Made by a program: the position numbers and the translations under genes. From an uncultured Aequorivita sp. (GTDB lineage: Bacteria > Bacteroidota > Bacteroidia > Flavobacteriales > Flavobacteriaceae), in assembly GCA_937125455.1 (NCBI GenBank), contig CAKZLK010000001.1, forward strand, positions 1-48,731: a stretch of 48,731 nt of DNA. Reading direction: 5' to 3'. Under the pieces are notes generated by a model that saw only the letters and a program-made list of their open reading frames with translations, ran no database searches and was not told the DNA's origin. Shown in pieces: positions 7,149 through 16,222 of the stretch. The number at the start of each line of letters is the position of its first letter. The stretch's first letter is position 1.

Positions 7149-8186
7149 ATGATTAACAAAAAGGCAAAGAAAAAACTGGGAGAAATCACTCAAAATTTAA
7201 TTTCTGAAAAAGTAGATTCTAAAGCCATAAAAAGTTCCATTGAAGCATTAAAGCTTCTTTTAGAAACAGTTTCGGAGCAAAGCCAAGAGACTCCAGGTAA
7301 TTCGGAAAATATATTCTTAGCTGCCGGAAAAGCAATCAGCCCCAAATGGGCGGGAATGTGTCTTAAAGACGCACAACGCACAAATAAATTTATGATAGGG
7401 TTAAACCAAGCTGTGCAGAAGGTTCTTAATAAAACTCCTGGGAAACCGGTTACCATACTTTATTCAGGCACGGGTCCCTTTGCAACTTTAATCTTACCGT
7501 TATTAACACTTTATACACCTTCCGAATTACAACTTATTTTACTGGAAGTAAACACGTCTAGCATTGAAAGCTTAAAAAATATTATTAAAGGCTTCGGGGT
7601 TCAAGACTATGTAGCTGCAATCTATAATTCTGACGCTTCAAATTTTATTATACCCAAAGAATTTGAAGTAGACATTCTGTTAGTGGAATGTATGCAACAC
7701 GCTTTGATGAGGGAACCACAAGTTGAGATAATCTACAATCTGCTTCCACAAATAAAAAAGGAAGTTATTTTGATTCCCGAAGAAATTTCCTTGCATTTGG
7801 CGCTTGTTGATATAGACAAAAAAAACAAATATCAATCAATAGAAGATAATAAAAGTAAAAAGGATTATTATGAAAATTCCGAAGCAGTTTTCACACTTAA
7901 TAAAGCAGAAGTACTTCAGAATAATTTAAACTTTAAAAAGGAGGGTTTTCAATTTCCCGAAAAGGAGACCTACTTTTCCAAAGAGCAACTCAACAATCAC
8001 GACTTTATAGCCATTACAACCGAAATTACTATCTTCAAAAATATTTCCTTAAATATTGACGAAAGCGGACTCACGGTTCCATTATTTTTGGCAGATTTAA
8101 ACAACGATCAAACCGTAATCGGAGCCAAAACACAATATATTGTAGGTCCAGAACCGGGTCTTGACTCACAATTGGTTCGATTTTAA
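7149..8186 (+). CDS. PRMT-like SAM-dependent methyltransferase
   Basis: This 345-residue protein has the class I SAM-methyltransferase layout of protein arginine methyltransferases. MCLKDAQRT (residues 70-78) parallels the N-terminal MLKDxxRT segment of PRMTs. YSGTGPF (105-111) is motif I, and Glu133 ends strand beta-2. ECMQHALMRE (180-189) reproduces the PRMT 'double-E loop' with two Glu exactly nine residues apart, the pair that grips the substrate guanidinium. A beta-rich C-terminal part (about 205-345) could be the barrel domain, but I see no THW loop. PRMTs are mainly eukaryotic and bacterial members are little described. The substrate is unknown; arginine or another amine methylation is an inference. 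The gene has its own upstream region with a palindrome and lies 101 bp ahead of a histidine kinase gene. Confidence 0.7.
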   Translation: MINKKAKKKLGEITQNLISEKVDSKAIKSSIEALKLLLETVSEQSQETPGNSENIFLAAGKAISPKWAGMCLKDAQRTNKFMIGLNQAVQKVLNKTPGKPVTILYSGTGPFATLILPLLTLYTPSELQLILLEVNTSSIESLKNIIKGFGVQDYVAAIYNSDASNFIIPKEFEVDILLVECMQHALMREPQVEIIYNLLPQIKKEVILIPEEISLHLALVDIDKKNKYQSIEDNKSKKDYYENSEAVFTLNKAEVLQNNLNFKKEGFQFPEKETYFSKEQLNNHDFIAITTEITIFKNISLNIDESGLTVPLFLADLNNDQTVIGAKTQYIVGPEPGLDSQLVRF

Positions 8187-8287: not shown

Positions 8288-9376
8288 ATGACTTTAGAAA
8301 AAAACCTTAAGGAGCGCATTAAAGAGCTTACCTGTTTGTATGAAGTTTCTTCCATTATCGTAAATAACGATTATAAAGAACTGGACAAAACGCTTTTTTC
8401 TATTGCACTCAGTATCAGAAAATCATTGCAATACAGCAAACATGCCACAGTTGAAATCTGCTCAGGTACTTTCCATCTTATTTCTTCAACACTTACGAAA
8501 AAAACGGTTTTTATTGAGAGCAACATTACTATTTTCAATGAGTCGAAAGGATATATAAAAGTTTATTATCCTGCAGATAAATTTACCAAAAAAGATTTTT
8601 TAAAAGAAGAGAAAAAATTATTGAAAAATGTGGCAATCAATGTTGGTGATTTGTTGGAACGCGTGACCATTCGTGAAAATGAAGCCATTGTAAAGCGAAA
8701 AATGGAACACGCAGACCGATTGAGTATTTTGGGGGAAATAACCGCAGGAATTGCACATGAACTAAACACGCCACTCGCAAATATTTTGGGCTTTGCCGAA
8801 CTTTTAAAAAGCAAGGAAGCCGGAAGCACACAAGCAAGTAAGGACCTTGATAAAATTATAAACAGCGCAATATTTTCGCGTGAAGTTGTTAAAAAATTGA
8901 TGTTTTTCGCTTGCGAAATGCCACAAAATTTAGGGCTAACAGATATAATTCCAGTGATAAACGAAGCGATGAATTTGCTGGATCCAACTTTTAAAAAGAC
9001 CGAAGTAAAATATAAAGTAACTCTTCCAAAAAGCCCCGTTTTATTAAAAGCTGACACCATTCAACTCACGCAGGTAATTTTCAATTTGGTACTGAACGCC
9101 ATTTATTTTTCACCAAAAGGTGGTTTGATTAAAATCATTTTGGAAGAAGCAAAAAAGAAAATAATTTTAAAAATTTCTGACGAAGGCCCGGGCATTTCCG
9201 CTGAAGATGTACAGAAAATATTCCAACCCTTTTTCACAACAAAAACTGTTGGCGATGGTTCTGGCCTTGGGTTGAGCGTGGTTCACGGAATTATACGCAG
9301 CCACCGTGGAACTATAGATTACCAACCAAATAATCCTACGGGTGCCATTTTTATTATTACTTTTCCGAAACAATAA
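8288..9376 (+). CDS. Soluble sensor histidine kinase, NtrB-like
   Basis: The protein has 362 residues and no membrane segment, so it senses a cytoplasmic signal. The N-terminal 120 residues resemble a small GAF-like sensory domain, linked by a helical connector. The H-box has phospho-acceptor His157 (AHELNTPL). The catalytic domain shows the N-box (NLVLN, about 266-270), G1 (DEGPGIS, 298-304) and G2 (GDGSGLGLS, 322-330). The gene ends 5 bp before the sigma54-type response regulator, so the two form a cognate pair. Their position just upstream of a sigma54 promoter and a glutamate dehydrogenase suggests a nitrogen or redox cue, but nothing in the sensor domain identifies a ligand. Confidence 0.93.
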
Positions 9377-9381
9377 AACCG

Positions 9382-10698
9382 ATGCTTAAAAAGGAAAATA
9401 TACTGATAGTAGATGACGACATCAACATTTTGGAGTTGCTCCAACGGCATCTGCATTCGTTGGATTACCACACTTACAAAGCCATTTCGGTTAAAGAGGC
9501 CGTCGCCATTTTGCGCGATACGGAGATAGATTTACTGATAACCGATCTAAAAATGCCCGAAGTTGATGGGTTTCAGCTTATTCAATTTGCTTCGGAACAT
9601 TATCCAAACATGCCAAAATTGGTGGTTACAGGGTATCCTTCAGTGCAAGACGCACTTTCGGCAATCAAGTCCGGAGTGGTTGATTATATAGTGAAACCTT
9701 TTACGAAGGAGGAATTGAAACAGGGCGTGCTTAAATCGCTTTCCATAAAAGCTAAAAGAAAAACCTCAACCGACTCTGCAGAAACAAAAAAATACAACGA
9801 AATTATTGGTGAAAGCGAAGCTATTAAAAACGTTACCCAAATAATTGACCGCGTTAAAGACAACAAAGCTACTATTTTCATTAGTGGTGAAAGCGGCACG
9901 GGGAAAGAACTTGTGGCCCGTTCCATTCACTATAACGGTAAATTTTCCCGTGCGCCATTTATTGCTGTGAACTGCGGTGGAATTCCAGAAAATCTCCTGG
10001 AGTCTGAGCTTTTTGGATATGTGAAAGGCGCCTTCACCGGAGCCAACGATAACCGCGAAGGGTTTTTTCAAGCTGCAGATGGCGGAACTATTTTTTTAGA
10101 TGAAATAGGAAACGCTTCGCTAGCTGTTCAATCCAGACTCTTGCGTGTTTTACAGGAAAAAGAGGTTATGAAGGTTGGCGACCGAAAAACCGAAAAAATT
10201 GAAGTGCGTGTAATTGCAGCTACCAATAGCAATTTAAAAGAAATGATTGCAAAGGAAACGTTTCGGGAAGATCTTTTTTATAGATTAACTGTCGTGGAAA
10301 TTGATGTGCCCCCACTTCGGCAGCGAAAAGAAGATATTCCGTTGTTGGCTGATAAATTTCTTTTTAAATATGGCAATGAGTATAAAGGTCGCTATATTAC
10401 TATAGACCCTGAAGCACAAGTCCTTTTGCAACGCTATGATTGGCCAGGAAACATTCGTGAACTGGAAAATGTGATTCAGCGGGCTGTAATTATGTGCGAC
10501 AGAACCATTGGCATAAAGGATTTGCCGGACAATTTAAAATATCAAATAAATTTCCCCGAAGAAGGACTACTCTCTTTAAAGGAAATGGAGAAAAAGTACA
10601 TCCAAAAAGTACTTGCGGCTACCGATAACAATCAAACTAAGGCTGCGGAGATTCTTAAAATTGACCGCAAAACACTTCGCGGGAAAACTAAAGAATAG
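9382..10698 (+). CDS. Sigma54-dependent response regulator, NtrC family
   Basis: The protein has 438 residues in three domains. The receiver domain (1-120) has acidic residues Asp11-13, phospho-acceptor Asp55 and Lys105. The AAA+ domain has Walker A GESGTGKE (169-176), the sigma54-contacting GAFTGA loop (216-221), Walker B (FLDE, about 238-241) and an arginine-finger region. A short Fis-type helix-turn-helix at the C-terminus (403-438) ends abruptly at RKTLRGKTKE. All residues needed to activate RNA polymerase-sigma54 are present. A canonical sigma54 promoter lies 206 bp after its stop, with dyad sites between, so the four-Cys peptide/GDH unit is the obvious target. The activator's own regulation is not evident. 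Confidence 0.95.
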   Translation: MLKKENILIVDDDINILELLQRHLHSLDYHTYKAISVKEAVAILRDTEIDLLITDLKMPEVDGFQLIQFASEHYPNMPKLVVTGYPSVQDALSAIKSGVVDYIVKPFTKEELKQGVLKSLSIKAKRKTSTDSAETKKYNEIIGESEAIKNVTQIIDRVKDNKATIFISGESGTGKELVARSIHYNGKFSRAPFIAVNCGGIPENLLESELFGYVKGAFTGANDNREGFFQAADGGTIFLDEIGNASLAVQSRLLRVLQEKEVMKVGDRKTEKIEVRVIAATNSNLKEMIAKETFREDLFYRLTVVEIDVPPLRQRKEDIPLLADKFLFKYGNEYKGRYITIDPEAQVLLQRYDWPGNIRELENVIQRAVIMCDRTIGIKDLPDNLKYQINFPEEGLLSLKEMEKKYIQKVLAATDNNQTKAAEILKIDRKTLRGKTKE

Positions 10699-10760: not shown

Positions 10761-10837
10761 ATTTGAAATTTGCCCTGATTGGGTAATTTCTCCCCAATGC
10801 AATAAATAATCCCCGCTTTATTCACTCTAATTATTTC

Positions 10838-10873
10838 ACAGTAAACTATTTAGATCACTGTTTTTTAGACAGT
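10838..10873 (+). promoter_or_regulatory. Candidate enhancer (UAS) half-sites for the sigma54 activator
   Basis: Three half-sites alternate in orientation: ACAGT at 10838-10842, ACTGT at 10857-10861 and ACAGT at 10869-10873. The last two form an ACTGT-N7-ACAGT dyad. They lie about 55-95 bp upstream of the predicted start site, the usual place for NtrC-type activator binding. The match to a specific regulator is inferred from position only. Confidence 0.45.
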
Positions 10874-10903
10874 TAATTGTTGTTTTTAAAATGCTTCTCT
10901 GAA

Positions 10904-10918
10904 TGGCACACAGGTTGC
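10904..10918 (+). promoter_or_regulatory. Sigma54 (-24/-12) promoter
   Basis: TGGCACACAGGTTGC matches the consensus TGGCAC-N5-TTGC at every defined base, with GG and GC exactly ten bases apart. Transcription should start near 10930, 17 bp before the small ORF at 10947. The sigma54 activator encoded immediately upstream supports its use. Confidence 0.87.
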
Positions 10919-10946
10919 CAATAACGATTGCAAACAATAAGTACCT

Positions 10947-11120
10947 ATGAATACAAATTCTATAAATCTTTGCAATGGATGTGTGCACGCTGCTTATTGC
11001 GTATTGACGCACACCAAAAGCGCGGTGTTTTCATGTAGTGAATTTGACGAACTACAGCACCAAACCCCCACCCCGATTAAAAAAATTAAAAAAAGAAAAC
11101 CAGAACTGGCGACAGTTTAA
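10947..11120 (+). CDS. 57-residue four-cysteine peptide under the sigma54 promoter
   Basis: This short ORF is easily missed. It starts ATG 17 bp after the predicted sigma54 start site and ends TAA at 11118-11120, 13 bp before the GDH ATG. The cysteines are Cys9-X2-Cys12-X5-Cys18-X11-Cys30, with NLCNGCVHAAYC at residues 7-18 and CSEF at 30-33, which is the pattern of a small metal-binding or redox-sensing knuckle. The C-terminal third is Lys/Arg-rich (IKKIKKRK, 44-51). It has no signal peptide or membrane segment. I recall similar short CxxC...C...CxEF peptides in other bacteria but cannot name a family. Being the first gene of the unit, it could modulate GDH, act as a metal or redox sensor, or serve as a leader. 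Coding status rests on the cysteine pattern and position. Confidence 0.7.
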   Translation: MNTNSINLCNGCVHAAYCVLTHTKSAVFSCSEFDELQHQTPTPIKKIKKRKPELATV

Positions 11121-11133
11121 AAAAACAATTAAA

Positions 11134-12429
11134 ATGATAAACGGACAAACAGTGGAAAAACCTAAACCTGTAAAAAGAGGAATGTTGGACAACGTGTTAG
11201 AACAATTCAACCACGCTGCAGACGAAATAGATCTAAATCCAAACGTTCGCAAAATTCTTAGCATTACCAATACTGAAATTATTATTCACTTTCCAGTCCG
11301 CATGGACAACGGCGATGTAGAAATATTTACTGGTTACCGCGTGCAACATAATAATGCACTAGGTCCCTATAAAGGCGGTCTTCGTTACCACCCAACAGTA
11401 GATATTGACGCAGCTCGTGCTTTGGCAATGTGGATGACCTGGAAAACATCTTTGGCAGGCCTGCCTTACGGAGGCGCAAAAGGAGGAATCCAGATTGATC
11501 CTTCAAAATATTCAAAAAGTGAATTGGAGCGGATTACCCGAAGATTTACGTATGCTTTAGGTGAAAACATTGGTCCAGAACACGACATTCCAGCGCCAGA
11601 CGTAAATACAAACGATCAAACCATGGCTTGGATTGCTGATACGTATATGAGTACCAAAAACACCAGCGAGCGTTCCAAAAATCAACACGTAGTTACAGGA
11701 AAACCTGTGGGCAGCGGAGGTTTGGAAGGTCGCGACCGCGCTACTGGTTATGGGGTATTTTTGACCATTAAATTTTGGGCAGAAAAGAACGATGAAACCC
11801 TAAAAGGAAAAACCTTTATCGTTCAAGGTTTTGGAAACGTAGGTTATTGGGCAGCACATTTCCTTGAAACCGAAGGCGCAAAGATGGTCGGTGTTCAGGA
11901 TGCTTTTGGAAGTGTTCAAAACAAAGAAGGTATTATTGTTGAAGATCTTTTCAACTATGGAAAAGCAAACAATGGTAGCATCTTAGGTTTCCCCGAAGCT
12001 TCGGCTATGAAAGGTAAGGATTTCTTTGGTTTAGATTGCGATATCTGTATTCCTGCAGCTTTAGGCAATCAAATTACAAAGGAGAACGCAGCTTTAATAA
12101 AAGCAACTTTAATCGCTGAAGGTGCAAATGGTCCAACAGATGTTGAAGGCGAAAAAATACTTATAGAGCGCGGCATCACAATTATTCCAGACATTATGTG
12201 TAATTCTGGCGGAGTGATTGGAAGTTATTTTGAATGGCTTCAGAACCGTAACGGCGAGCTTTGGCAGATGGACGAGATTCTGGAAAAACTGGAGAAAAAG
12301 CTTAAATCTACTTTCAAAAAAGTAACCACATATTCTGAAGAAAACGGAGTCGATATGCGCACTGCAGCATTTGCAATTGCCATAGAACGCATTGAAAAAG
12401 CATACATATTAAGGGGAATCTTCCCATAA
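11134..12429 (+). CDS. Glutamate dehydrogenase, NAD-type (RocG/GudB-like)
   Basis: The protein has 431 residues from the ATG at 11134. The same frame extends upstream to a GTG at 11038, but that stretch overlaps the four-Cys ORF and lies before the normal N-terminus, so the ATG is preferred. It catalyses reversible oxidative deamination of glutamate to 2-oxoglutarate and ammonium. The substrate lysines lie in GPYKGGLRYH and PYGGAKGGI; the dinucleotide fold shows GFGNVG followed by an acidic VQDA, as expected for an NAD-preferring enzyme. It resembles catabolic Bacillus-type GDH rather than the second, NADP-type GDH at 26985-28328. It is cotranscribed with the four-Cys peptide from the sigma54 promoter and followed by an inverted repeat. 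The transhydrogenase genes downstream could turn its NADH into NADPH. Confidence 0.93.
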   Translation: MINGQTVEKPKPVKRGMLDNVLEQFNHAADEIDLNPNVRKILSITNTEIIIHFPVRMDNGDVEIFTGYRVQHNNALGPYKGGLRYHPTVDIDAARALAMWMTWKTSLAGLPYGGAKGGIQIDPSKYSKSELERITRRFTYALGENIGPEHDIPAPDVNTNDQTMAWIADTYMSTKNTSERSKNQHVVTGKPVGSGGLEGRDRATGYGVFLTIKFWAEKNDETLKGKTFIVQGFGNVGYWAAHFLETEGAKMVGVQDAFGSVQNKEGIIVEDLFNYGKANNGSILGFPEASAMKGKDFFGLDCDICIPAALGNQITKENAALIKATLIAEGANGPTDVEGEKILIERGITIIPDIMCNSGGVIGSYFEWLQNRNGELWQMDEILEKLEKKLKSTFKKVTTYSEENGVDMRTAAFAIAIERIEKAYILRGIFP

Positions 12430-12525: not shown

Positions 12526-12942
12526 ATGAAATACGGAAACTTGATATTGGAAAAAAAAGAATACGTTTTTTTAAAGCGCCTCTTAAATGTTACTGGCTAT
12601 TACAAAGACCAAAACACGAAAGATTCATTAAAAAAATTAAGTGGGGAGCTAACAACTGCTATTATTTACGACAATGAAGAAATGCCAGAAGATGTCATTC
12701 GTTTCAATAGCATTGTTACTGTAAAGTCTGGTACATGGAGAACCGAATTTCAATTAGTCATTCCCACGGCACGGGATATATCCGTCAATAAAATTTCCAT
12801 ATTGGCTCCTATGGGCTCGGCAGTTATGGGTTATGCGGAAGGCGATTCAGTATCATGGAATTTTCCAAACGGCACTAAAGAACTTCAAATAACAAGTGTG
12901 AAACAAGCAGAAAGACCCATTGATATAGACGTACTATTATAA
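12526..12942 (+). CDS. GreA/GreB C-terminal-domain protein, Rnk-like
   Basis: The protein has 138 residues. The second half (about 60-138) matches the FKBP-like C-terminal domain of GreA/Rnk proteins, including APMGSAVMGYAEGDSVSWNFPNG at roughly 99-122. The N-terminal coiled-coil needed for GreA RNA-cleavage activity is absent; only a short helical segment precedes the domain, as in Rnk. Rnk-type proteins bind RNA polymerase without cleavage activity. It lies between GDH and the transhydrogenase genes, which suggests membership of the same metabolic unit, but the mechanism is unknown. Confidence 0.8.
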   Translation: MKYGNLILEKKEYVFLKRLLNVTGYYKDQNTKDSLKKLSGELTTAIIYDNEEMPEDVIRFNSIVTVKSGTWRTEFQLVIPTARDISVNKISILAPMGSAVMGYAEGDSVSWNFPNGTKELQITSVKQAERPIDIDVLL

Positions 12943-12985: not shown

Positions 12986-13366
12986 ATGCAGATTTACGAC
13001 CACGACACTCCGGAGACAATCACCTTTAAGAATAATTGGATTGAATTGGATAATTGGATTGGCCACTTGGAATACATTGAGAAAGAAATAGTAAACCTCC
13101 TAAACCTTAGTAATGGGGAGCTTTTTAATATTTTGGAGGAACAACCAGTTTTGATGAGACTTTCTATAAAAAAGGAAGAAAACAGGATTAATCTGAATGC
13201 TTTTAGAAAATATAAAAATAGCCTACCGCTCGCTACGGAATGTGAAGATGTGGACTGCGATATGTTTTATATAAGCGAACACGAACGCTACAGAAAAATT
13301 TATTTATACCATTTGGAAAAATACAGAAGAGTTAAAGAAGAGTATTTCAATATCCTAAACAAATAA
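12986..13366 (+). CDS. Conserved hypothetical protein, 126 aa
   Basis: I do not recognise a family. The protein is acidic and probably all-helical. It has aromatic-rich segments at the start (WIELDNWIGHLEYIEKE, about 17-33) and end (HERYRKIYLYHLEKYRRVKEEY, about 98-119), and a CEDVDCDMF motif near 84-92 with two cysteines that could pair or bind metal. It starts 43 bp after the Rnk-like gene and ends 28 bp before pntA, so it is probably in the same operon. A partner role for the Rnk-like protein or transhydrogenase is only suggested by position. Confidence 0.75.
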   Translation: MQIYDHDTPETITFKNNWIELDNWIGHLEYIEKEIVNLLNLSNGELFNILEEQPVLMRLSIKKEENRINLNAFRKYKNSLPLATECEDVDCDMFYISEHERYRKIYLYHLEKYRRVKEEYFNILNK

Positions 13367-13394
13367 TGCTTTGAATATAAGTACAACAAAAATT

Positions 13395-14528
13395 ATGAGC
13401 GAACAGCCACAGCCAATGACAATAGGAGTTCTTAAAACCCCAAATGATTCGAGGGTTTGTTTGTTACCCAAAGAAGTTAAACGTCTTACTGGGGAATTGG
13501 CACTCAACATTCTTTTTGAGTCCGGGCTGGGCAGTTCGCTAGAAATTGAAGATGACGCATACCTACAGGCTGGAGCCAAATGCCAATCGCGAGAATCAAT
13601 TTTTAGAAATTCGGATACCATAGTATCAATTAACCATACTTTTAGCGAAGTGGAAATGAAGGGGGGTTGTTGCTTCATTGGTATTTTCAATCCCCTTTTT
13701 CATGATTCCAAATTCGTTATTTATAAAAAACATAGTGCTACCGTTTACAGCTTAGATTTGCTACCCCGAACCACATTGGCGCAGCCTATGGATGTGCTTT
13801 CTTCAATGGCTTCATTAGCGGGGTATAGGGCTACTGTAAAAGCTGCTGAACTATATAATAGCGTGTTCCCTATGTTTACAACAGCCGCGGGAACACTTAC
13901 TCCTGTTAAAATTTTAGTACTCGGAGCTGGTGTTTCAGGTTTACAAGCCATTGCCACAGCACGACGTATGGGCGCAATAGTAGAAGCTTTTGATGTGCGT
14001 AAATCTGCTGGAGAAGAAGTAAGAAGCCTCGGTGCCACATTTATTGAAGTGGAAGGCTATACCGAATCTTCAAATGCCGGAGGTTATGCCGTGGAACAAA
14101 GTGAAGCATATCAAAAAAAGCAGAAAGAGTTGATCCACAATCATATTCTAACGGCAAACATAGTTATCAGTACAGCAAATATTCCTGGAAGAAAAGCCCC
14201 TTTACTTATTGAAACGCACTCCGTGGAAGCCATGCAACCCGGTAGTGTAATCATTGATCTTGCTGCCGAACAAGGCGGAAATTGCGAACTTTCAAAAAAT
14301 AACGAAACTATAAGTCACAATGGAGTAACTATTTTAGGAAACTCAAGTCTTTCTACTGAAATTCCCTCTGCTGCTTCAAAATTGCTTTCCAATAACTTTT
14401 TCTCCTTTTTAAAATATAAACAAAAAGCAGAAAGTCAAGAAGATGATCCATTGCTAAACGCCTGCCAAATAATGAACGAAGGCGAATGGACGCATCCTCA
14501 TTTTACCAAACAACTACAACCCGCCTAG
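13395..14528 (+). CDS. pntA: Proton-translocating NAD(P) transhydrogenase, alpha subunit 1 (NAD-binding domain)
   Basis: The protein has 377 residues from the ATG at 13395; a TTG in frame at 13371 lies upstream but is less likely. It has an AlaDH/PNT N-terminal domain (about 8-135) and an NAD-binding Rossmann domain with GAGVSG near 180 followed by an acidic VEAFDVR. It is the soluble domain I of transhydrogenase, which passes hydride from NADH to NADP+ using the proton gradient. In this split form the membrane part of alpha is a separate gene two bases downstream. The organisation pntA1-pntA2-pntB is typical of many bacteria. Confidence 0.93.
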   Translation: MSEQPQPMTIGVLKTPNDSRVCLLPKEVKRLTGELALNILFESGLGSSLEIEDDAYLQAGAKCQSRESIFRNSDTIVSINHTFSEVEMKGGCCFIGIFNPLFHDSKFVIYKKHSATVYSLDLLPRTTLAQPMDVLSSMASLAGYRATVKAAELYNSVFPMFTTAAGTLTPVKILVLGAGVSGLQAIATARRMGAIVEAFDVRKSAGEEVRSLGATFIEVEGYTESSNAGGYAVEQSEAYQKKQKELIHNHILTANIVISTANIPGRKAPLLIETHSVEAMQPGSVIIDLAAEQGGNCELSKNNETISHNGVTILGNSSLSTEIPSAASKLLSNNFFSFLKYKQKAESQEDDPLLNACQIMNEGEWTHPHFTKQLQPA

Positions 14529-14530
14529 CT

Positions 14531-14827
14531 ATGGATTTTATAAATCAAAACATTCAAGAAATTTACTTTGTTCTCTTCTGTGTCTTTATCGGCATTGAGG
14601 TTATTGCAAATGTTCCCGCTATTTTACACACACCATTAATGAGCGGCGCTAATGCTATTAGTGGTGTTATTTTGGTTGGAGCCATTATTGTGATGCTTCG
14701 GGTTCCAGCAGACGATTACCTCAATCTTACTTTGGGAGGAATTGCTGTTTTTCTCGGCACACTTAATATTTCTGGAGGTTTTTTTGTTACCGGAAGAATG
14801 CTGAAAATGTTCAGTTCAAAAAAATAA
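14531..14827 (+). CDS. pntA2: NAD(P) transhydrogenase, alpha subunit 2 (membrane part)
   Basis: The protein has 98 residues from the ATG at 14531; the upstream in-frame extension overlaps pntA1 and is rejected. Four hydrophobic segments (about 9-28, 35-55, 58-75 and 78-90) fit the membrane portion of the alpha subunit. The sequence around ANVPAILHTPLMSGANAISG is characteristic of this family. Together with PntB it forms the proton channel (domain II). It is 2 bp after pntA1 and 6 bp before pntB, so translation is probably coupled. Confidence 0.93.
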   Translation: MDFINQNIQEIYFVLFCVFIGIEVIANVPAILHTPLMSGANAISGVILVGAIIVMLRVPADDYLNLTLGGIAVFLGTLNISGGFFVTGRMLKMFSSKK

Positions 14828-14833
14828 TCTAAG

Positions 14834-16222
14834 ATGTACGCAATTATTGAAGTAGGCTATTTACTGGCCACTATTTCCTTTTTAGGGGGGTTGAAGTTTA
14901 TGAGTTCTCCAAAAAACGCAAAAACAGGAAACCTAATAGCGGCTATGGGTATGGTGCTGGCAGTTGTGCTCACTTTTGTAGCAGCAATTACTGCTACGGT
15001 TCCCTATACAAATTTAACTATAATGTTTTTAGCAATTGCCATTGGAACCCTCATTGGCAAACGCCTTTCGGACAAAGTTGAGATGACCGGAATGCCACAA
15101 CTGGTTTCACTTTTCAATGCAACTGGGGGTGGTTGTGCAATGCTTTTAGGATTAGTTGAGGCCAATCAAATGGATATTACAACTTCAATTTTGGGAAATC
15201 AAATCTTGCTTATTGCGGGTTTGGTTACCGGTGCGATTGCCTTAACAGGAAGTATAATTGCAGAGCGAAAACTGGCTGGAAAAGTGAAGGACAGGCGCAG
15301 CAAATCGGTTATTTTTTCAGCAAGAATACTTTTGGGATTGATGGTGTTGTTGCCCGTGCTTTATTTCTTCGGAATCATTCCAATTGGCTTTACCGCTTTT
15401 ATGTATGTTTTGGCAACGCTCGCTATGGTTTATGGCGTTCTTTTCGTACTTCCTATTGGTGGCGCAGATATGCCTGTTGTAATTTCACTATTAAACAGTA
15501 TTACAGGTATCGCAACTGCTTTCGCAGGTTTTGTTTACGGGAACAAGGCAATGATAGCCGGTGGAATTTTTGTAGGTGCCGCAGGAATTTTGCTTACGCT
15601 TTTAATGTGCAAAGCGATGAATCGTTCATTATTAAAAGTTCTTGCCGGAACGTTTAAAAAAAGTAAAAACGGTATTGTTGAAGAAGAACAGGATATTAAA
15701 GAAATCAGTATTTCAGAAACAGCAATGTCGCTTTCATTCGCGCAAAAAGTGGCAATCGTTCCCGGTTACGGACTTGCCGTTGCACAGGCGCAACATATTT
15801 GTGGACAATTGCAACAGTTATTGGAAAAACGCCATGTTGGGGTAGATTACATTATCCATCCCGTTGCAGGTCGTATGCCCGGCCATATGAACGTGCTTCT
15901 TGCCGAAGCCAATGTGGAATATTCTCACCTAAAGGAAATGGACGAGGGCAATGAAAACATGGAGCAATATGATGTTGTCTTAGTTCTAGGTGCAAATGAT
16001 GTGGTAAACCCCGCTGCCGAAAACAACCCCGACAGCCCAGTTTACGGCATGCCAATCATCCGTGTTTATGAAAGCAAGCAAGTAATTGTTATTAAACGAA
16101 GTATGAACAAAGGCTACGCCGGAGTGCAAAACGACCTCTTTGGATTGGACAATTGCTGTATTCTTTTTGGGGATGCGAAAGTTTCTTTGCAGGAAATTGT
16201 GAATCAGTTGAAACTAATTTAA
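14834..16222 (+). CDS. pntB: NAD(P) transhydrogenase, beta subunit
   Basis: The protein has 462 residues, the usual length. Residues 1-260 hold eight or nine membrane segments of the proton pathway. The C-terminal domain III (about 285-462) binds NADP(H) through PGYGLAVAQAQ (about 305-315), with the conserved HPVAGRMPGHMNVLLAEA, LGANDVVNP and GYAGVQNDLF segments. It completes the enzyme that makes NADPH from NADH at the cost of the proton gradient. Its position downstream of an NAD-type GDH suggests coupling of glutamate oxidation to NADPH supply. Confidence 0.95.
   Translation: MYAIIEVGYLLATISFLGGLKFMSSPKNAKTGNLIAAMGMVLAVVLTFVAAITATVPYTNLTIMFLAIAIGTLIGKRLSDKVEMTGMPQLVSLFNATGGGCAMLLGLVEANQMDITTSILGNQILLIAGLVTGAIALTGSIIAERKLAGKVKDRRSKSVIFSARILLGLMVLLPVLYFFGIIPIGFTAFMYVLATLAMVYGVLFVLPIGGADMPVVISLLNSITGIATAFAGFVYGNKAMIAGGIFVGAAGILLTLLMCKAMNRSLLKVLAGTFKKSKNGIVEEEQDIKEISISETAMSLSFAQKVAIVPGYGLAVAQAQHICGQLQQLLEKRHVGVDYIIHPVAGRMPGHMNVLLAEANVEYSHLKEMDEGNENMEQYDVVLVLGANDVVNPAAENNPDSPVYGMPIIRVYESKQVIVIKRSMNKGYAGVQNDLFGLDNCCILFGDAKVSLQEIVNQLKLI

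Follow-up and report, generated by a model that had tools for sequence, protein, structure and literature searches.

A conserved four-cysteine microprotein family at the head of a predicted sigma-54-type glutamate dehydrogenase operon in Flavobacteriaceae

Genes and promoter of the locus

The window, that is, the whole stretch of 48,731 nucleotides analyzed, which comes from an uncultured Aequorivita sp., carries a short ORF encoding a peptide with four cysteines between a two-component system and a glutamate dehydrogenase gene (Table 1). Across the genomes compared, the order of the operon was HK, RR, peptide, GDH, GreA/Rnk-like gene and 126-aa ORF, followed by Usp or by transhydrogenase genes depending on the genome; PntA also followed in the six other Aequorivita loci (L135 to L140). 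HK preceded RR in the related loci extending that far, and the Gre-like gene came after GDH in most of the loci read. The nearest solved relatives of GDH were themselves GDHs (1b26; E, 3.8e-119). For its part, the Gre-like gene gave nucleoside diphosphate kinase regulator as its best NCBIfam match (81 bits, under the cut-off of 109), and the Pfam matches of the 126-aa ORF, including a weak one to Imm42, all fell under their cut-offs. A 345-aa ORF upstream of the kinase (window positions 7149 to 8186) looked by eye like a SAM-dependent methyltransferase; it showed no Pfam match at an E value of 0.01, and a relative with 75% identity was present in G013, a genome without this GDH orthologue. No match at the gathering threshold was obtained in an Rfam scan of the window.

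Table 1. Features of the operon in the window and loci of relatives with additional microproteins
Feature	Position	Strand	Evidence
Sensor histidine kinase (HK)	8288-9376	+	Pfam HisKA and HATPase_c
NtrC-type sigma-54 activator, response regulator (RR)	9382-10698	+	Pfam Response_reg, Sigma54_activat, HTH_8
Predicted sigma-54 -24/-12 promoter element, TGGCACACAGGTTGCC	10904-10919	+	Sequence; same place in 16/17 intact genus copies
Four-cysteine microprotein	10947-11120	+	57 aa, ATG start; Cys9, Cys12, Cys18, Cys30
Core C9-x2-C12-x5-C18-x11-C30, proposed metal site	10971-11036	+	Four Cys and Thr21 invariant, 83/83
Glutamate dehydrogenase (GDH)	11134-12429	+	Pfam ELFV_dehydrog and N-domain
GreA/GreB C-terminal domain protein, Rnk-like	12526-12942	+	Pfam GreA_GreB
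126-aa ORF behind the Gre-like gene	12986-13366	+	tblastn relatives, same place in many loci
NAD(P) transhydrogenase genes	13371-14528, 14486-14827, 14834-16222	+	Pfam AlaDh_PNT_N/C, PNTB (first and third)
Loci with microproteins A/B in the gap	L026, L028; also L024, L027, L029, L030, L032, L036, L037, L039, L040, L043, L046, L134

By itself, the match to the sigma-54 promoter was not significant in the window, where one strict match was found versus 0.25 expected, and 19 of 100 shuffled versions contained at least one. The call is convincing because relatives have the element at the same position: a strict -24/-12 match lay just upstream in 16 of the 17 intact copies of the genus, with L012 off by one base. 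Strict matches were located 39 to 57 nt before the peptide ATG, except for one additional, more distant match. If the usual distance from the GC of the -12 region applies here, as we assume, transcription would start about 17 nt before the peptide ATG. The 250 nt preceding the first Cys were also scanned with up to two mismatches allowed, in 63 loci comprising 52 class I loci from as many genomes and 11 of 22 of the divergent class described below. The element was present in 35 of these loci versus 42 of 1,260 shuffled controls, and the same span contained none in the other 28. The initial annotation had proposed the peptide as the first gene of a sigma-54-driven unit with GDH, and the position of the element in relatives supports that proposal.

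Coding evidence, conservation and loss of the peptide

The same annotation had described a 57-codon ORF with cysteines at residues 9, 12, 18 and 30, ending 13 bp before the GDH start codon. This description was borne out: the spacings between the four Cys residues are 2, 5 and 11, and 13 nt separate the peptide stop codon from the ATG at 11134. It had also been called overlooked. The ORF is indeed real and conserved, but it was already deposited as a hypothetical protein in several Aequorivita and other records; "hypothetical protein" was the name in all the protein database records of the peptide except P0075, which bears an automatic Zn-finger name. A first protein database search with the peptide recovered five close homologues, of which two bear the name Aequorivita, and a third one rendered 318 matches at an E value of 10, the best 120 of which were considered. 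The window protein matched no Pfam family and no NCBIfam family, and searches of PDB sequences with the peptide profile and the core sequence gave no match at an E value of 10.

An intact 57-codon copy was found in 17 of the 28 genus genomes, the window's own included, and all four Cys residues were present in every one of the 17. Silent changes were observed at three of the four Cys codons in these copies. The dN/dS ratio showed a median of 0.19 and a maximum of 0.38 over the 82 usable of 136 genus pairs, the other 54 having dS values outside 0.05 to 1.5. Forward frames +1 and +2 contained 2 to 7 stops in each of the 17 copies. An antisense ORF at 10836 to 11012 was rejected as a true gene, given that over the span of the peptide each reverse frame was stopped in at least 16 of the 17 copies.

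The alignment of the family consisted of 83 sequences, the window's plus 82 of 136 retrieved proteins selected by eye on the basis of their length and diversity. The four Cys residues and Thr21 were invariant in it (83/83), and His14 (79/83), Val27 (82/83) and Ser29 (82/83) were nearly so. The majority pattern of this class (class I) was C-P-x-C-x-H-x3-C-V-L-T-x2-K-x2-V-W-S-C-S-E-[YF], followed by a variable tail.

Losses were also observed. A GDH orthologue was found in 23 of the 28 genus genomes, and 17 of those 23 had the intact peptide. In G015, G023 and G025 the peptide was decayed and its Cys set incomplete, in G001 the promoter was retained and the peptide was reduced to its tail, and G002 and G009 showed no trace of it. 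Judging from a quick GDH tree for which support values were not printed, the peptide may have been lost about four times independently in the genus. HK, RR and GDH were retained where the peptide was lost, which indicates that the circuit runs without it. The five genus genomes without a GDH orthologue (G007, 69% complete, G011, G013, G020 and G026) gave no peptide match.

Three outcomes had been named in the initial annotation that would speak against the gene. Loss of the Cys pattern in relatives was contradicted by the four Cys residues of the 17 intact copies and of homologues throughout the family, and a dN/dS near 1 by the median of 0.19. Broken frames were absent from the 17 intact copies but did occur elsewhere: of the 23 genus genomes with GDH, 4 carried wrecks and 2 no trace. 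That the ORF arose by chance and is not a gene is an idea to which the wrecks without most Cys residues (G015, G023 and G025) and the bare tail in G001 lend something; it is refuted by the homologues, the copies in genus and family, the purifying selection and the invariant Cys residues, and we regard it as extremely improbable. Thus, that the ORF encodes a real protein can hardly be doubted.

Distribution of the family and accompanying genes

Profile A1, built from 14 sequences, found matches in 52 of 299 Flavobacteriaceae genomes, and the broader profile A2, from 34 sequences, in 53. In a phylum-wide draw of 345 genomes only 4 matched, all of them Flavobacteriaceae. The core-only profile A4 yielded 11 matches at an E value of 0.01 in the 345 Bacteroidota genomes, of which 4 were strong and again from Flavobacteriaceae. 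The frames of the other 7, weak and partial and outside that family, were read and judged to be chance matches; the one in G623 (L177), which looked best, had the C-x2-C-x5-C run but its fourth Cys came only after 16 residues, with no in-frame ATG and an antisense position to a 168-codon open frame. None of the 7 had relatives of HK or GDH beside it, and the single RR-like match (L180, 26% identity) was weak. The peptide family may be confined to Flavobacteriaceae, or else the profile search may be too weak beyond them.

In RR-positive genomes missed by the profile (G080, G149, G305 and G290), the same slot contained an ORF with the motif C-F-N-C-D-x4-C-[TS]-W-x7-C-E-H-F. This divergent class (class II), with the core C-x2-C-x5-C-x9-C-E, occupied the slot in Salegentibacter, Christiangramia and others. 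A scan for it by sequence alone, with one genome per species, gave 21 loci in Salegentibacter, Christiangramia/Gramella, Salinimicrobium and Zunongwangia; in all 21, HK and RR preceded the ORF and GDH followed it. The motif was recognized at first in 19 of them, the remaining two ending in C-E-L-F. In G191, a single ORF (L158, 4552 to 4845, minus strand) contains tandem four-Cys motifs, one per class; it directly follows a sigma-54 element and precedes GDH. The two classes are joined by motif, slot and this tandem ORF, the profile link between them not being significant, and we infer that they probably form one family. Both a short ORF with the core C-x2-C-x5-C-x(9-11)-C and a location by HK-RR/GDH were found for the proposed four-Cys GDH-operon microprotein family.

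We read the locus of each of the 53 profile-positive genomes. The commonest order was HK, RR, peptide, GDH, GreA/Rnk-like gene and 126-aa-type ORF, with Usp at the end of the operon in some of them. In seven loci, extra Gre-like genes or longer spans separated RR from the peptide; extra GreA/Rnk-like genes at this place were noted in L117, L122, L123, L126, L129, L133 and L143, so that these operons contain more than one Gre-like gene. A second copy of the peptide was not found with A2 in the 299 genomes, and A1 found one, in G170, with two internal stops.

All 53 A2-positive genomes were among the 69 of 299 with an RR orthologue (threshold E, 1e-150), and none was among the remaining 230. An intact peptide of either class was present in 54 of the 59 genomes with both RR and GDH, the exceptions being G079, G088, G166, G274 and G337; G088 was placed among the exceptions on account of two stops in its match, a decayed copy. 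Among genomes with RR only, 3 of 10 had an intact peptide (G133, G202 and G317), and their GDH matches were all distant, with 30 to 35% identity. Among those with GDH and no RR match at 1e-150 (G090, G102, G129, G142, G301 and G321), 0 of 6 had the peptide, the divergent class being sought there within 700 nt upstream of GDH. Fisher P values, uncorrected for shared ancestry, were 5.6e-6 for 54/59 versus 0/6 and 7.1e-5 for 54/59 versus 3/10. The GDH search behind these counts covered 285 of the 299 genomes; GDH was read from the loci for G335, G337, G344 and G345, and the membership of other RR-positive genomes in the draw is inferred, the non-matching genomes being named in part.

From the three genomes without a GDH orthologue and the 0/6 with GDH only, it follows that the peptide tracks RR at least as strictly as it does GDH. 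The initial annotation had asked, as a check, whether the ORF always stands beside a GDH or an NtrC-like regulator; the regulator was present in all 53 profile-positive genomes, and three genomes had the peptide without this GDH orthologue. The role in glutamate catabolism suggested at first is supported in part, and weakened as a role in catabolism alone, since the dependence on RR is as strong as that on GDH (3/10 and 0/6). In G290 the GDH block was inverted relative to RR and the peptide stayed with GDH, and in G061 peptide and GDH lay together on a contig other than that of RR. In both cases the peptide was on the strand of GDH, as expected for a co-transcribed first cistron.

The gaps between peptide and GDH ranged from 1 to 523 nt, and the long ones in relatives often contained more small ORFs, with up to two basic microproteins, A and B. 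Microprotein B (35 to 54 aa), with KYxERSIxNRLFK or a very similar sequence at its C-terminus, was found in 13 of 20 listed gaps (one shortened, one altered) and also in G088; microprotein A (41 to 48 aa), with SPYRF near its end, was found in 6 of the 20. Within the five genomes containing both, all 10 pairs of A and all 10 pairs of B had a pN lower than pS (0.20 versus 0.71 for A, 0.26 versus 0.58 for B). Scans of one example of each against Pfam and NCBIfam gave nothing above chance level. In L033 (in the gap), L141 (5393 to 5755), L157 and L160, a protein of some 120 aa that looks secreted was inserted between RR and the GDH or Gre gene; the four were alike by eye, and one example gave no Pfam match.

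Proposed role and comparison with known proteins

The peptide is best explained as a genuine microprotein family whose gene opens a sigma-54-type operon and would be co-expressed with it. Its four Cys residues, perhaps together with His14, probably bind one metal center, either a [4Fe-4S] cluster or Zn2+. Metal or redox sensing, as the initial annotation had proposed, is therefore plausible. An AlphaFold model on the 83-sequence alignment was poor (mean pLDDT, 53) and gave no help on cluster geometry. When 34 family members were scanned, Pfam profiles rendered weak resemblances to Zn_ribbon_IS1595 in 12 (best E, 0.0035), to Opy2 in 5 (E, 0.027), to DDE_Tnp_1_6 in 1 (E, 0.003, with a score under its cut-off) and to the NuoG-type 4Fe-4S region in 1 (E, 0.071). 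The zinc-ribbon and transposase-domain resemblances were about as weak as the [4Fe-4S] ones.

We propose, with a probability of roughly 40%, that the peptide is a redox- or metal-sensitive adaptor or feedback element. The kinase and the regulator would fire the operon and the small four-Cys protein would be made; its Cys residues would hold a redox- or metal-sensitive metal center, and the protein would tune the HK-RR-GDH program, most likely by feedback on HK or RR, through which GDH output would be affected. Feedback on HK or RR has a slight edge over binding to GDH, given that the peptide can persist where this GDH orthologue is gone but was unseen in genomes without RR. Against the adaptor, the gene was lost about four times within the genus with HK, RR and GDH still in place, and the peptide remained with GDH and not with RR where the two were separated (G290 and G061), which fits a GDH partner equally.

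Such a partner would bind GDH directly and switch its activity or stability according to the redox or metal state. The peptide lay upstream of GDH on its strand even after GDH had left RR, its stop codon was 1 to 15 nt from the GDH ATG in many genomes, and among RR-positive genomes it was enriched with GDH (54/59 versus 3/10; P, 7e-5, uncorrected for phylogeny). However, intact copies occurred in three genomes where this GDH orthologue was not found, and none of the six genomes with GDH and no RR match carried one, so that we consider direct partnership unlikely. Clearly less likely still is a leader cistron whose translation drives or couples that of GDH and whose residues matter little. The very short predicted 5' leader and the 13 nt to the GDH ATG in the window would suit such a leader, but it is hard to reconcile with the invariant Cys and Thr and nearly invariant His residues of the 83 aligned sequences, the dN/dS of 0.19, the wide range of gaps, the longer of which often hold other ORFs, and the three copies persisting without GDH.

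The neighboring Usp, Gre/Rnk-like and transhydrogenase genes resemble a stress or energy-limitation set, and the gene is dispensable, being lost in some genus genomes; both observations are in agreement with a small Zn- or Fe-S-binding protein that serves a general stress regulon as a metal store, redox buffer or chaperone-like factor and regulates none of HK, RR and GDH. The fixed place of the peptide, found only with one HK-RR pair and nowhere else in the 299 genomes with A2, makes this role rather doubtful. Similarly doubtful is that the peptide is a minimal [4Fe-4S] sensor of oxygen, NO or redox state that gates the sigma-54 two-component program, and that the 5' end of the operon is a cassette in which one Cys-rich and up to two basic microproteins jointly tune kinase, regulator and GDH. 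If true, it would mean that a protein of 57 residues lacking any DNA-binding domain performs FNR-like sensing.

The open PMC literature was searched for the operon, its organisms and the peptide, and neither operon nor peptide was found described. Small, Cys-rich proteins of metal type are already known from regulated operons; the four-Cys family described here and its genomic context seem to be new. A sigma-54-type stress/energy operon thereby gains a microprotein that has no name yet, occurs in many genera of Flavobacteriaceae and has an invariant Cys set of metal type. The question is raised of whether such a Cys protein of 57 residues senses redox or metal conditions on behalf of a two-component system. 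The operon also illustrates that several conserved microproteins can lie between a promoter and the enzyme gene annotated first behind it.

Among known Cys proteins, the zinc ribbon Zn_ribbon_IS1595 (PF12760) shares the CPxC knuckle common to most class I members and was weakly matched in 12 of 34, but the peptide has a single CxxC and no second knuckle, and the window protein itself was unmatched. The NuoG 4Fe-4S region (PF10588) has the C-x2-C-x5-C spacing; its match in 1 of 34 members (E, 0.071) was not significant, and the other parts of NuoG are absent. FNR also has an N-terminal C-x2-C-x5-C run, as in the peptide. It has four Cys residues and an O2-sensitive [4Fe-4S] cluster (PMC4505428). 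FNR is, however, a DNA-binding protein of the CRP family, whereas the 57-aa peptide has no cNMP-like or HTH domain and no Pfam match.

Wbl proteins are likewise small, with four Cys residues in the [4Fe-4S] motif CxnCx2Cx5C, whose last three ligands have the spacing seen in the peptide, C-x2-C-x5-C (PMC7363131). The order differs, the fourth Cys of the peptide coming after this run and the extra Cys of Wbl before it, and the G[V/I]WGG motif is absent from the window peptide and from the 34 A2 rows. Moreover, the peptide has 57 aa versus 80 to 140 aa for Wbl (PMC7363131). Wbl proteins are reported to be restricted to actinomycetes, whereas the peptide is from Flavobacteriaceae. In operon layout and promoter type, the locus is like the NtrC-type HK-RR units with sigma-54-controlled metabolic operons. 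It differs from them in that its RR stayed under the curated cut-offs of all 25 listed of 122 NCBIfam families, and what is new here is that the first cistron encodes a microprotein.
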